Shown one piece after another: positions 41,278 through 62,897 of a stretch of 64,000 nt of DNA (positions are counted from its first letter, which is position 1; the number at the start of each line of letters is the position of its first letter). Location of the stretch: contig NC_091188.1 of NCBI RefSeq assembly GCF_040958095.1, positions 36,522,017-36,586,016 of the forward strand, given 5' to 3'. Origin of the DNA: Procambarus clarkii (Eukaryota > Arthropoda > Malacostraca > Decapoda > Cambaridae). The notes beneath the pieces are model-generated. The model worked only from the letters and a program-made list of their open reading frames with translations, was not told the DNA's origin and searched no databases. The translations under genes were made by a program, and so were the position numbers.

Positions 41278-42190
41278 CTATCGTCTAAATGTATTATCCT
41301 GTGCTTCTTCATATGCCGAAGCTACTTGAATCTCGTCCCACACTGGGTACCTATAAGGTCGATTCCATGAATGCACTAAAATGTGACATATTAAGGTTGT
41401 ACGTGTTTTACATTTTTTGCCACATACAGCACGTTCGAAAGGTCGTTTATCCATATGCTCCATCCTGTGTGTCTTCATACTTCCAAGATGCTTGAATCTC
41501 TTCCCACACTCTGGACAATCATGAGATTTGACACCTGAATGCACTAACAAGTGATGTTTCATATTTCCAAGACGAGTGAATACCTACCCGCACTCTGGAC
41601 ATCCATGAGGTTTATCACCTGAATGCACTAACAAGTGAAACTTCATGTGCCCAAGGTGACTTAATCTCTTCGCACACTCTGTACATTCGTGAGGTTTGTT
41701 ACCTGAATGCACTAACATGTGAGTCTTCATACTTCCAAGTTGACTGAATCTCTCCCCACACTCTGGACATTCGTGAGGTTTGTGACCAGAATGCACCATC
41801 CTATGTGTCTTCATACTTCTACGAAGCTTGAATCTCTTTCCACACTTTGGACATCCATGAGGTTTGTCACCTGGATGCACTAACAAGTGAGACTTCATGT
41901 CCGCAAGGCGAAAGAATCTCTTCCCACACTCTGGACATCCATGAGTTTTGTCACCTGAATGCACTAACAGTGAGACTTCATGTGACTAAGGTGGCTGAAT
42001 CTCTTCCCACAATCTGAACACTCATGAAGTTTGTGACCTGAATGCACTAACATGTGAGTCTTCATATTTCCAAGTTGACTGAATCTCTTCCCACATTCTG
42101 AACATTCATGAGGTTTGTCACCTGAATGCACTAACATGTGACATATTATGGTTCCACGTTTTTTAATTTTTTTGCCACACCCAGCACCGG
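41278..42190 (-). pseudogene. Decayed C2H2 zinc-finger array
   Basis: About ten tandem fingers of 28 residues (84-bp period) run on the minus strand with the consensus HxCPECGKRFxxLGxMKxH and linkers HSGDKPH. Seven or eight have all four zinc ligands (for example HECPECGERFSQLGSMKTHM). A one-base deletion near 41970 shifts the frame between fingers 2 and 3; TAG at 41584-41586 interrupts finger 7 right after CPECG; the C-terminal two units have lost ligands (AVCGKKCKTRTTLICH, then no finger). It would have been a nuclear DNA-binding protein of the poly-finger type. No start exon, domain partner or promoter is seen; the N-terminal end fades near 42.19 kb. It is probably a pseudogene or a broken exon of a multi-copy family. 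A sequencing indel could explain the frameshift but not the stop. Confidence 0.85.
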
Positions 42191-44616: not shown

Positions 44617-45873
44617 ATGCCTGGTGCACTTAATTATAATCTGCGTTCAAACATTCCTTCCACGGCTGTGACAATGCCTACCACTGTTGAAACCCCCTCA
44701 GACTCAACGGGAGCAGTTGCTCGTCCCAGTGTCCAGAGGTCCGCTCAGGAAATGGCTATTCCTCTTTTTGCTGATGAATCACGCTTATTAGAGTCATAGT
44801 TTAGTAAAGTTGAAGCGAAAACAGTTGCACGTTTTTCCAAGCCTACTGATGCCGAATACTTGGCAATTGCACGGTCAGCTGTGGACACAACCAAAGGTGA
44901 TGCACGTTTTGTTGTTGATGAGAAAGCCATTGTTAGCCTCCAGTCTTGGTCTGAATTTAAGGATTTCTTTCGCCGTCGCTTTGTTAACAATGGAGACCTT
45001 GACCCGTATAGGTCAGTCAAGAAAATTGCCAATGCCACCATGCAGCCTGGTGAATCGTTTAATGCGTTTACTAGCCGTCTCGATCAGTATCTGTATGCCT
45101 TAGTGTCTGTTATGAATAGTTCGTCTTGGTTAGATAAAGACAATAATCTGTCCCCTGAGGCTATAGCCAAGATGATAGCATTTGGGACTTTAATGCATTT
45201 TGCCCCAGAGTATACTAAACCAATCATCGAGCAACAAAATTATGGAGTTAAACATGAAATTGGTGAAGTATTTGATGCTATTAACAATGTTGCCGATAAA
45301 CTAGCTCCCCGAAGTGCTCAACTGTTGCCACCCTCTGATACTGTAAATGTAGTAACAAACTCTCAGCATCCTCCCACAAACTCTCAAAACTCTTGGTTGC
45401 AGAACCGTACCCATGCTCGTAGCCCCCAGTCAAATTCACCACCTCATAAATTGCCGAAACTCCATAGTCCACAACCATCCACTCCCTCATGTTGGCATTG
45501 TGGTAAGAGTAACCACCTCGCAAGGGACTGTTGGTCCGCCCCTAGATCATCACCCCCTAGACAATTCTCTCGGTCCCCTCGTCAATCTAATCATTCTAGG
45601 CTCCCATATTGCAAGTACCATAAACAAGTTGGACACCACACTGCGGATTGTACAGCTAGGCAAAGGACATCCCCACCTCGTAACTCTCATGGTCAGTCTT
45701 GGCGAGGCGCACAGCGTCCAAGACATTATCAGAACTCGTGTAATTACAATTCTCGGCCCAGCTATAATGCAACTTCGAACTATAATACTCTGCCACAGAA
45801 TGCTGGAGTTCAGAATGTTCACTCCATTTCGTCGGGAAACCCTCAAAGCCATCCGCTAACCAATTCAAGCTAG
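44617..45873 (+). pseudogene. Gag of element E (one in-frame stop)
   Basis: ATG at 44617 (MPGALNYNLRSNIP) starts a frame broken only by TAG at 44797; it stays in phase to 45873. The capsid-like part contains WSEFKDFFRRRFVNNGDLDP and MQPGESFNAFTSRLDQYLYA, typical of gypsy gag. Two C-terminal zinc motifs follow a Pro/Ser-rich linker: CWHCGKSNHLARDC near 45.49 kb (C-x2-C-x4-H-x4-C) and a variant CKYHKQVGHHTADC near 45.61 kb in which the second Cys position is His. The protein would form the virus-like particle and bind RNA. Apart from the TAG, which occupies what could have been a CAG codon, the frame is intact. Confidence 0.88.
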
Positions 45874-51882: not shown

Positions 51883-52019
51883 TCGAACCCGCCTGTGACA
51901 TTCATCAATGTTTCCCATTGTAGTGTTTTTCAAGAGATCCATAACCTTTAAGCACCTTTTTGCATTATTATTTTTGTATCAACCCATGTATATCTTGTAA
52001 CCATCAAATGCATAATAAA

Positions 52020-52170
52020 GCACACAAAATAAAAAAGGAAGGGGGTGGTAGGAGAAAAGCACACAGAAACTGTATTGGAGGGGATCTAAACATTCCCTCT
52101 AATGCGTTATGCGTGGTTTCCTCCGAGGCTATGGGTCCCCCTTCTTCCAGCTAGAGGTGGTACTCTTATA
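52020..52170 (-). repeat. Dispersed repeat G, copy 1
   Basis: On the minus strand: 'agtaccacctctagctggaa', 'gggacccatagcctcggagg', ending 'ctcctaccacccccttcc'. A related plus-strand copy is at 57050-57180. Both copies abut (TA)n. Confidence 0.7.
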
Positions 52171-52171
52171 A

Positions 52172-52535
<364 letters not shown>

Positions 52536-52548
52536 TAAATAATTTATA

Positions 52549-53370
52549 AGCACTTCTGTAGTTTTATTGACTAAGACAGCAAGGTGTATAACTGGCCAGC
52601 CGAGGTCCACCTACTCTGAGTCTGTCGGGAGAACTGAGCCTGCTGGTGACTGTCTGTCTGGCATGACGTCAGAGGCCTACTCGCCTGTGATTGGTTGTCT
52701 CAATGGACATACAATTTGAGTATAACACCGCTCGGACACGCTACCAAGTCGACATCCCTTGTCGACAAGCTCTGGCTAGCTATATAGTTACAATGATACT
52801 AAAAGGACCTCGGTGGCATTCAATAATGGCTTACATGTGAAATTTGCATAATAAACTTTGAAAGAAGATCAGGTGTAAAAAATCATGGTAATAATGCTTT
52901 AATTAAACCAGAGTATTAAAAACATGTGTATGTCTACTTATCAGATGTGAACAATACAACTCAAGGTATTGCCTAAACAAAATTATTAGCATGTGTTAAT
53001 GGCATGTGCTTGAAACAATACAAATTAAACAATTATTATATTAATGGAACAAAATTCTGACCTAACAACCACAAAAGAATTTTAAGATTAGTTAATGAGG
53101 ATTGTTTTTTTGTTTTGTTTTTCAATGTACAATACATTTACAAGACTAATGTACAATATATTTAATGTTCAATATATTTACGAGCTATATACAAGACCTG
53201 GATCAAGAAGACTAACATCTGAGTGATAGCAGTCAGGATTCATTGGCCTCAATGTGGGTGCTAGAACATTAATGAACTCTTATGACAAGAACTGCAAAAA
53301 TACAAATGTCAGTAGACTTAACAATGGCATCTAATTTATAACACAAAATAAAATTGAGAAAAAACTTCTC
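52549..53370 (-). mobile_element. LTR-E with adjoining sequence, inverted copy 1
   Basis: Reverse complement of 58796-59910 without the SINE found there. The LTR proper (52549-52727) lacks its last 38 bases and contains the CRE TGACGTCA; the remaining 0.65 kb is non-coding and unassigned, perhaps the 3' internal part of an element E relative. With the plus-strand copy it forms inverted arms around 5.4 kb. Confidence 0.85.
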
Positions 53371-53386
53371 ATATATATATATACAT

Positions 53387-53954
53387 GCGAACAAGCCTGA
53401 ATGGTCCCCAGGACAATATGCAACTGAAAACTCACACCCCAGAAGTGACTCGAACCCATACTCCCAGATGCCACGCAACTGGTATGTACAAGACGCCTTA
53501 ATCCACTTGACCATCACGACCGGACATAATGAGGTGATAGCCGAGGCTATTTGAACCACCCCACCGCCGGCACTCGGATAGTAATCTTGGGCATAGCATT
53601 TTACCAAATCACCTCATTCTTTGGGGCACACGTGAGGAACACAAATGCGAACAAGCCTGAATGGTCCCCAGGACAATATGCAACTGAAAACTCACACCCC
53701 AGAAGTGACTCGAACCCATACTCCCAGATGCCACGCAACTGGTATGTACAAGACGCCTTAATCCACTTGACCATCACGACCGGACATAATGAGGTGATAG
53801 CCGAGGCTATTTGAACCACCCCACCGCCGGCACTCGGATAGTAATCTTGGGCATAGCATTTTACCAAATCACCTCATTCTTTGGGGCACACGTGAGGAAC
53901 ACAAATGCGAACAAGCCTGAATGGTCCCCAGGACAATATGCACCTGAAAACTCA
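53387..53954 (-). repeat. SINE-C tandem array, minus-strand units
   Basis: Units start at 53387, 53647 and 53907 (exact 260-base period; the third is partial). The first two look identical base for base. The minus strand contains a tRNA-Leu-like head (TGGTCAAGTGGATTAAGGCG, then the T-arm TATGGGTTCGAGTCACTTCT). Confidence 0.9.
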
Positions 53955-54410
53955 GAATGAGGTGATTTGGTAAAATGCTATGCCCAAGATTACTATCCGA
54001 GTGCCGGCGGTGGGGTGGTTCAAATAGCCTCGGCTATCACCTCATTATGTCCGGTCGTGATGGTCAAGTGGATTAAGGCGTCTTGTACATACCAGTTGCG
54101 TGGCATCTGGGAGTATGGGTTCGAGTCACTTCTGGGGTGTGAGTTTTCAGTTGCATATTGTCCTGGGGACCATTCAGGCTTGTTCGCATTTGTGTTCCTC
54201 ACGTGTGCCCCAAAGAATGAGGTGATTTGGTAAAATGCTATGCCCAAGATTACTATCCGAGTGCCGGCGGTGGGGTGGTTCAAATAGCCTCGGCTATCAC
54301 CTCATTATGTCCGGTCGTGATGGTCAAGTGGATTAAGGCGTCTTGTACATACCAGTTGCGTGGCATCTGGGAGTATGGGTTCGAGTCACTTCTGGGGTGT
54401 GAGTTTTCAG
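53955..54410 (+). repeat. SINE-C tandem array, plus-strand units
   Basis: Orientation flips at 53955. Units start at 53955 and 54215, again a 260-base period, the second cut by (TA)n. With the preceding array this makes an inverted repeat of about 0.45 kb arms. Confidence 0.9.
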
Positions 54411-54411
54411 T

Positions 54412-54509
<98 letters not shown>
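54411..54509. repeat. (TA)n microsatellite
   Basis: About 98 bp, one TACATA interruption near the left end; separates inverted SINE-C copies. Confidence 0.97.
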
Positions 54510-55947
<1,438 letters not shown>

Positions 55948-55950
55948 TCT
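55948..55950. other. Centre of the 2.08 kb palindrome
   Basis: CTTATGATG (ending 55947) and CATCATAAG (from 55951) are separated by TCT only. Coordinates in the arms sum to 111898 from end to end, so there is no net indel. Confidence 0.95.
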
Positions 55951-56987
55951 CATCATAAGAAGGAAAGTGAAAAGCCATGCAACCTCTGAAGAGACTACTA
56001 ACACAACACCTATACCCCGTATTAGACTATTTTACAGGAACTTCTTTTCCACAGCTCATAAAACGGAGGAAAGGGTCCTGAAAGATATTGCTAATAGAAA
56101 CGTTATCCCTACAGACAAAAATCAGAGGATACAACTGACGATTTACTATAAAACGAGAAAAACGGCCAGCCTACTCATGAGAAACTCTCCAGACACAAAA
56201 CAGAACGCTTTAAAAGAGACTAACGTCGTCTATGCCTTCAAATGCCCTCTTGGGGACTGTAAGCTCCAAAAAACCCAGTATATAGGCAAGACAACAACAT
56301 CTCTTTCTAGGCGTTTAACGATGCATAAGCAACAGGGCTCCATTAAGGAACATATAATCTCTTCCCACAACCAAACCATCGCCAGAGAAATCCTAGTAAA
56401 CAACACAGAAATCATCGATAGATACAGCGATAGCAGGCGGCTTGACGTTTGCGAGGCACTACACATCAAGAAGTCAACACCAGCAATCAACAGCCAATTA
56501 TTGCACAACTATATTCTACCCACCTCAAGACTCCGCTCCAATATAGAAGCATCAAGAAATATGGACCAATAGGCTTTCTACAAACACTTCTATTCAATAT
56601 CCATTGTTTTGTGTTCTGTCTTGTGTTGATGAAATTAATACCCTATTAATACTCTTGTTCTGTCTTGTGTTGATGAAATTAATACCCTATTAATACCACA
56701 TCTTGTTCTGTCTTGTGTTAATGCCACATCACCCCTTCCACCTCACTCAAATGTAGATATAAAATCGGAGATGCGTAAGTTCTATTCAGTTGTGTATTTG
56801 TGAACTAAAGTCTTTGAAAATGTAATAAGTTTTACGAAACGCGCTCGTGTCGCGTCAGACTAGAAATAAAAATAATTTTTGGAGAATTGATTTTTGATTT
56901 ACCTCCAACAGTGAAGCGAAATGTACGGAAGATTGAGAAAATTCGTGTTAGAATTATTAATCTTACTTTTTCGGTCATATTTAATAA
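55951..56987 (+). pseudogene. PLE-P2, right palindrome arm: connector and GIY-YIG endonuclease
   Basis: An open frame of 201 residues (55967-56572; no upstream RT) encodes the PLE connector and GIY-YIG nuclease, with TQYIGKTTTSLSRRLTMHKQ near 56.27 kb and a C-terminal part EILVNNTEIIDRYSDSRRLD absent from the left arm because of its stop. The 3' UTR contains two or three copies of 'tgttctgtcttgtgttgatg', then the hammerhead-like fold and the closing TTAATAA. The arms differ at ten or more positions in 1037 bases by eye. Confidence 0.9.
56809..56861 (+). ncRNA. Hammerhead-like fold of PLE-P2 with U3/A8 core
   Basis: Stem I AGTCT (56809-56813) pairs with AGACT (56857-56861). Core TTGAAAA (56814-56820) occupies the place of CUGANGA; stem II GTAA/TTAC (56822-56825/56832-56835); GAAA 56836-56839; stem III CGCG/CGCG (56840-56843/56851-56854); cleavage triplet GTC (56854-56856). 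Relative to the consensus, C3 is U and G8 is A; these two bases pair with each other in the known hammerhead structure, so the change could preserve a pair. Activity is uncertain. Confidence 0.65.
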
Positions 56988-57049
56988 TATATGTCTACAG
57001 GAAAGACTGCTACCAAAATATACTAATATATATATATATACATATATTT

Positions 57050-57180
57050 TTTTTTTTACCACCTCTGGTGCCAATGTGGGGACCCATAGCCCCGGAGAAG
57101 AAAATAAAAATTATTCAGAGGAGACCTTGTCGTTTCTCACTGAACACTAATATTATCTTCTCCTACCACCCCCATTCTTT
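57050..57180 (+). repeat. Dispersed repeat G, copy 2
   Basis: 'ttaccacctctggtgccaat', 'gggacccatagccccggag' and 'ctcctaccacccccattc' correspond to the minus-strand copy at 52.02-52.17 kb. Function unknown. Confidence 0.7.
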
Positions 57181-57251
57181 TGTATGTACACATATATATT
57201 TACTTTTTATATTTTATTTTACTTTTTATATTTTACTTTTACTTTTGTATT

Positions 57252-57257
<6 letters not shown>

Positions 57258-57345
<88 letters not shown>
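57258..57345. repeat. (TA)n microsatellite
   Basis: Pure TA; borders the first MITE copy. Confidence 0.95.
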
Positions 57346-58277
<932 letters not shown>

Positions 58278-62649: not shown

Positions 62650-62897
62650 GCCTCGTAGCCTGGTGGATAGCGCGCAGGACTCGTAATTCTGTGGCGCGGG
62701 TTCGATTCCCGCACGAGGCAGAAACAAATGGGCAAAGTTTCTTTCACCCTAAATGCCCCTGTTACCTAGCAGTAAATAGGTACCTGGGAGTTAGTCAGCT
62801 GTCACGGGCTGCTTCCTGGGGGTGGAGGCCTGGTCGAGGACCGGGCCGCGGGGACACTAAAGCCCCGAAATCATCTCAAGATAACCTCAAGATAACC
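62650..62897 (+). mobile_element. SINE-B body with a tRNA-Thr-like head
   Basis: The head (62650-62719) folds as a cloverleaf: acceptor GCCTCGT/ACGAGGC pairs perfectly, anticodon stem CAGGA/TTCTG with loop CTCGTAA (anticodon CGT, Thr), T-arm GCGGGTTCGATTCCCGC. From 62720 the body and tail are those of the other SINE-B copies. It lies within a degenerate LINE. Confidence 0.92.

Follow-up and report, generated by a model that had tools for sequence, protein, structure and literature searches.

The window analysed here, a 64,000-nt stretch of the Procambarus clarkii genome (contig NC_091188.1, positions 36,522,017 to 36,586,016), contains three copies of a hammerhead-like motif, two of which lie in a palindromic pair of element ends (Table 1). 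The arms of this palindrome align without gaps over 1,055 bp, 17 positions being mismatched, and because copies 1 and 2 sit in the two arms of one palindrome, the window provides two independent copies, not three. The coordinates that an earlier sequence-only reading gave for all three copies are borne out by the letters, and stem I (AGTCT/AGACT, 5 bp), TTGAAAA, stem II, GAAA, stem III and GTC were found in each copy. The arms carry just the end of an open frame with a GIY-YIG-like domain, which is separated from the start of copy 1 on the same strand by 236 nt. Using tblastn, this frame was matched in 6 of 20 related loci taken with 850 nt of upstream sequence, partly on the opposite strand. 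As far as the predicted features go, the order of frame and then motif is that expected of a Penelope-like element (PLE) end. Head-to-head palindromic pairs are frequent among the copies, with 10 pairs among the 30 loci cut from the half-motif search (see below), the minus copy lying first and the plus copy second at a distance of 0.5-3.0 kb.

Table 1. Features of the hammerhead-like motif copies and their element context in the window (positions count from the first letter of the window).
Feature	Position	Strand	Remarks
Hammerhead-like motif copy 1, 53 nt	56809..56861	+	sense to GIY-YIG-like frame; predicted cleavage after C17 at 56856
Copy 1, stem I 5' strand AGTCT	56809..56813	+	partner 56857-56861 (AGACT)
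Copy 1, core strand TTGAAAA	56814..56820	+	U3 and A8 replacing C3 and G8
Copy 1, extra U	56821..56821	+	between A9 and stem II
Copy 1, stem II GTAA/TTAC with 6-nt loop TAAGTT	56822..56835	+	
Copy 1, GAA, then stem III ACGCG/CGCGT (A15.1-U16.1 included) with 7-nt loop	56836..56855	+	
Hammerhead-like motif copy 2, identical to copy 1	55037..55089	-	opposite arm of the same palindrome
Hammerhead-like motif copy 3, 56 nt, diverged	52402..52457	-	stem II longer by one pair through insertion; one G-U in stem III
Palindromic pair of element ends, 3' ends outward	54906..56992	.	arms 54906-55960 and 55938-56992
Open frame (stop to stop), 208 aa, GIY-YIG-like domain	55946..56572	+	PF01541, E 0.0011, 19.7 bits, under the curated cut-off of 22.6

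Copy 1 has the layout AGTCT / TTGAAAA / T / GTAA-TAAGTT-TTAC / GAA / ACGCG-CTCGTGT-CGCGT / C / AGACT, and all window copies have three stems round a core with a type I open end (5 pairs in stem I, 4-5 in stem II and 5 in stem III). G12, A13 and A14, the A15.1-U16.1 pair and H17 are found in these copies as GAAA ... UC, and among copies having a letter at the respective site, U16.1 is present in 70/70 and C17 in 68/70. The consensus core C3 U4 G5 A6 N7 G8 A9 is replaced by TTGAAAA and an extra U, and positions 3 and 8 are able to pair as U3-A8 in all three copies. Because C3 and G8 are replaced and a U is added, we call the motif a variant hammerhead. The earlier statement that only positions 3 and 8 change holds as a description of C3U/G8A, but it overlooked the extra U after A9. 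When the core is read as 7 nt, stem II opens with a U10.1-C11.1 mismatch; in the 8-nt register it starts with G-C, as in hammerheads. The pairing of stem II had also been said to survive sequence change in the diverged copy, and copy 3, which differs from copy 1 in loop III as well, does still pair there, but by a one-base insertion (GTAA/TTAC to GTAAT/ATTAC) and not by a compensatory double substitution. The predicted energy of the hammerhead fold is -8.6 versus a minimum of -10.4 kcal/mol for copy 1 and -7.6 versus -8.7 kcal/mol for copy 3, and since folding programs ignore hammerhead tertiary contacts, this counts as weak counter-evidence.

Searches with general models and databases gave negative results. 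With Rfam at gathering and permissive thresholds, no hammerhead was found in the window or in 52000-57400, and because 15 related loci (of 162) also gave no hammerhead match, the silence of Rfam is uninformative here. A genome search with RF00163 gave no match among the 73 of 451,447 candidates that were scored, and 14 control genomes gave none either. There was likewise no match in a DNA search with a 91-base query, a search which skips very common words, and none in one viral_contigs scan for relatives. A literature search gave no text match for a 17-base stretch of the motif, nor for hammerhead with "C3-G8".

The 4.03-Gb assembly (2,308 contigs) was searched with motif patterns, using reversed patterns as controls. 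The half motif of stem II and GAAA, GTAATAAGTT(0-3)TTACGAAACGCG, occurs at 45,003 genome places (reversed control 0), and GTCTTTGAAAAT (GTCT-TTGAAAA-T) stands directly upstream of it at 41,713 places (93% of the 45,003 count; control 0). The same upstream stretch was present in 30/30 loci cut from the half-motif search, which leaves the core free. Tens of thousands of places have U3/A8 as their regular state, and so do related motifs in which stems I and II differ. Because these places are copies of one element, the high count alone does not show a ribozyme; changes between lineages that appear compensatory do speak for one. At 503 places (control 0), the genome has a related group whose stem III is shorter (GTCT ... 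ACGAAACGCGTTCAGGCGTCAGAC, core free). Among the matches listed for it (100 of 503), TTGAAAAT is intact in 77, and a fixed register gives 89 U-A, 2 U-G, 1 C-A and 0 C-G.

Motifs with other stems were collected by two further patterns. Using a pattern with stem I CCT, Y at position 3 and R at position 8, we obtained 435 places (control 0), with 60 distinct motifs among the matches listed (100 of 435); the 49 distinct ones among these listed matches whose stem II does not start with GTAA comprise 26 U-A, 17 C-G, 4 C-A and 2 U-G. A pattern with another stem I and with bases 3, 4, 7 and 8 free gave 238 places (reversed control 0), and the matches listed (100 of 238) comprise 55 U-A, 30 C-G, 7 C-A, 3 C-U and 2 A-A, with U-G, U-C and A-G once each. 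As distinct motifs, these listed matches number 81, namely 41 U3-A8, 26 C3-G8, 7 C3-A8 and 7 other. The share with U-A or C-G is 67/81, compared with 38.5 when shuffled, and 0/5,000 shuffles were as high, the shuffling ignoring descent. U3-A8 is, at the level of these sequence patterns, beyond a one-family oddity, and the earlier description of a C3U/G8A change holds across them, but a C3-A8 lineage that has multiplied (see below) tells against a strict pair. Since ATG was required by both patterns, they cannot speak to the extra U.

The remaining core and stem positions were compared in the same motifs. Among the 41 distinct U-A motifs from the matches listed, base 7 is A in 20, T in 8, C in 7 and G in 6, and base 4 is T in 39; position 7, the sole free position of the hammerhead core, accepts all four bases in U3-A8 motifs. 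For stem II, six pairs were examined by shuffling in the 81 distinct motifs among the matches listed, and excess pairing was obtained at 3/6, descent being ignored throughout. Pair 10.4-11.4 is formed in 73/81 (shuffle mean 63.5, 0/5,000 as high; the pattern restricted 11.4), 10.6-11.6 in 47/81 (mean 33.5, 0/5,000 as high) and 10.2-11.2 in 69/81 (mean 63.9, 22/5,000 as high; the pattern restricted 11.2), and there was no excess at 10.3, 10.5 and 10.7, of which 11.3 was fixed by the pattern. In the C3-G8 relatives, position 4 is mostly C (CCGAAGA-like, 21/30 rows among the matches listed, e.g. L113, L115 and L118), where hammerheads conserve U, and U4 is kept in 53/55 U3-A8 rows among the matches listed.

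Since shuffling ignores descent, the count has to be read together with a tree of the flanks. The tree comprised 79 copies, that is, 60 of the 100 listed free-base rows and 19 main-family copies (7 obtained with searches that specify the core, 3 chosen for their state); it omits 40 of the 100 free-base rows, which were without flanks, and L073, which did not fit the extraction. The minimum number of changes that it requires is 12 at base 3 and 15 at base 8, and its resolution is poor (36/74 inner branches open). In the 5-6 well-supported independent pairs, bases 3 and 8 differ together in about 3 and apart in 0.3-0.4, the rest being without difference; 3/79 rows with U at position 8 were left outside this paired test. 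The sign test gave a median p of 0.5 and 0.25, the pairs being too few to reach 0.05. By count, covariation between 3 and 8 appears strong, and by descent 5-6 pairs are too few to decide.

Single changes at the two positions tell against a strict pair. With broader patterns ending in ACGAAACGCG, CTGANAA (C3-A8) was found at 252 places (control 1; other families included), TTGANGA (U3-G8) at 36 (control 2) and CTGANGA (C3-G8) at 22 (control 5). C3-A8 places outnumber U3-G8 places (252 vs 36), the reverse of the strict-pair expectation. For a subfamily with stem II GTAACAAGTTATTAC, a search that left bases 3 and 8 open gave a complete listing of 65 places, by hand count 33 U-A, 32 C-A and 0 G8. 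Two flank words are shared by 10/10 C3 copies and by 0/10 U3 copies (the comparison covered 10 copies from each group, out of 32 C3 and 33 U3 places), which points to a lineage that multiplied with a C3-A8 mismatch, the separateness of its insertions being judged within the element only. From such a lineage it would follow that cleavage is dispensable, or supplied in trans, or that C-A is tolerated, and the apparent multiplication counts against a strict 3-8 pair.

Several candidates for a canonical core in the main family were rejected. Only one of the 22 CTGANGA places, L047 (CTGAAGA), has main-family flanks and an aligned core; it was considered as a canonical sister family, but in the flank tree it falls within the U3-A8 clade, next to a U3-G8 copy, and this position makes a derived copy the likelier reading. 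L040-L043 and L050 appeared canonical (CTGATGA...GAAA), but in each the left half comes from a different sequence, joined to an element end that is truncated; L040-L043 are on one contig, 0.5-1.5 kb apart, and L050 with the same kind of junction is on another. In L033, L036 and L038, CTGA words lie upstream of the element.

Hammerhead motifs of PLEs are reportedly the subject of Cervera and de la Pena (2014) and Lunse et al. (2017), and a 2007 paper in RNA is said to have found that two type III ribozymes remained competent with whichever Watson-Crick pair stood at 3-8. A viroid hammerhead described by De la Pena and Flores in 2001 reportedly has an extra A in the core between A9 and 10.1; one core nucleotide is likewise added in the crayfish motif, where it is U in a retroelement and not A in a viroid. 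The exchange at positions 3 and 8 is already known in nature: the consulted part of Perreault et al. (2011, PMC3088659) describes C3-G8 to U3-A8 covariation in several natural hammerheads, the same exchange as in the crayfish PLE motif, and states that ribozymes with covarying bases at 3/8 had earlier been proven active in vitro. That text speaks of "several hammerhead ribozyme examples", whereas in the crayfish a very large PLE lineage has U3-A8 as its regular state, accompanied by an extra U. What is added here, judged against PMC3088659, is the scale and the PLE setting. One halophile hammerhead variant is also listed with U at position 3 and G8 in the consulted part of PMC7151607.

A close comparison is the hammerhead of the Anolis PLE, which likewise belongs to a GIY-YIG endonuclease PLE and has stems I and II. 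In the part of PMC11167929 used here, C3G or G8C abolishes its cleavage, the double mutant partly rescues it, and cleavage takes place only with the PLE protein. PLE hammerheads are described in the sections consulted as minimal or atypical type I variants (PMC6155905, PMC7229834), the minimal form being without helix III (PMC6155905), whereas the crayfish main family has a looped stem III of 5 pairs and a U3-A8 core in place of C3-G8. Unlike known PLE hammerheads, the crayfish AUG is immediately followed by two stop codons. This ATG TAA TAA is found in the main family (window 56820-56828) where the Anolis PLE reportedly starts its ORF.

We consider it probable, with moderate confidence, that the motif is a hammerhead of a Penelope-like retroelement, located in the non-coding part behind the GIY-YIG-like frame, in a lineage that carries U3-A8 and an extra U. 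Master elements would have needed the fold, so that the 3-8 pair would have been swapped rather than lost. The RNA of the masters may then be cleaved at GTC-A, in a reaction that would probably be weak and might require the element's own protein, as reported for the Anolis PLE, and such cleavage would trim the element transcripts; many of the genomic copies would be decaying and need not cleave. In this reading, the masters of the lineage probably retain activity, either weak or protein-assisted.

The most serious alternative, although we regard it as unlikely, is a hammerhead relic, whose fold and sequence are kept for another use, e.g. recognition of the element RNA by reverse transcriptase or a role at the DNA level, cleavage having been lost at the core change. 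The multiplied C3-A8 sub-subfamily fits this, as does the Anolis PLE, for which the consulted part of PMC11167929 reports in vitro insertion unchanged by ribozyme mutants and 0 reads starting or ending at the presumed cleavage site. The flanks are conserved as well, with a mean identity of 0.95 in the motif, 0.79 upstream and 0.91 downstream, values that are biased because an anchor was used and because 26/72 copies have G8 and were mostly picked for it. However, in U-A motifs with several stems II, base 7 takes any of the four bases, but base 4 and the combination at 3 and 8 are constrained, and this tells against a plain binding site, because such a site need not spare exactly the position that is free in hammerheads.

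The same motifs make a founder effect improbable, in which drift in a single dead or trans-served copy produced U3 and A8, and hitchhiking amplified them, without any compensation. Copies of one master share letters regardless of their use, and the tree-aware test with its 5-6 independent pairs falls short of significance, so that the idea deserves some weight; but U3-A8 occurs with at least four stem II types (GTAAT, GTTGAC, GTTAAC and GTAAGG) and with all four bases at position 7, and therefore a long diversification of the lineage, with stem II still complementary, is suggested. Finally, that a repeat merely resembles a hammerhead by chance is strongly disfavoured. The hammerhead fold above the minimum energy and the Rfam models without a match would agree with it, but stem II appears to covary, CTGAAGA cores occur in related motifs, the motif is in sense orientation behind the GIY-YIG-like frame, and hammerheads have already been published in PLEs, according to the consulted parts of PMC11167929 and PMC7229834.

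A bolder extension of the favoured hammerhead reading, which we offer only tentatively, is that the active-site pair of an entire PLE ribozyme clade changed from C3-G8 to U3-A8 without loss of activity, and that this clade multiplied to tens of thousands of copies. Since stem III of the main U3-A8 family is looped and longer, a change from dimeric to monomeric cleavage may have accompanied the switch. In three C3-G8 motifs (L138, L155 and L161), the sequence is GAAACGCGTC, where stem III is without a loop, and the self-complementary ACGCGU would suit cleavage as dimers. The 3-8 pair matters since it contains G8, which has been proposed as the general acid of the hammerhead through its 2'-OH (PMC6155905, in the section consulted). 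The C-G, U-A, C-A and U-G versions of otherwise similar motifs in one genome represent a natural mutational series, which suits the question that the Anolis in vitro work leaves in the consulted part of PMC11167929, i.e. whether PLE mobility depends on ribozyme activity.

At 53381-54740 of the window, repeated units and inverted copies surround TA microsatellites and resemble, by eye, tRNA-derived short interspersed repeats, and a tRNA-family match (Rfam RF00005, 44.7 bits) is located at 62650-62720.
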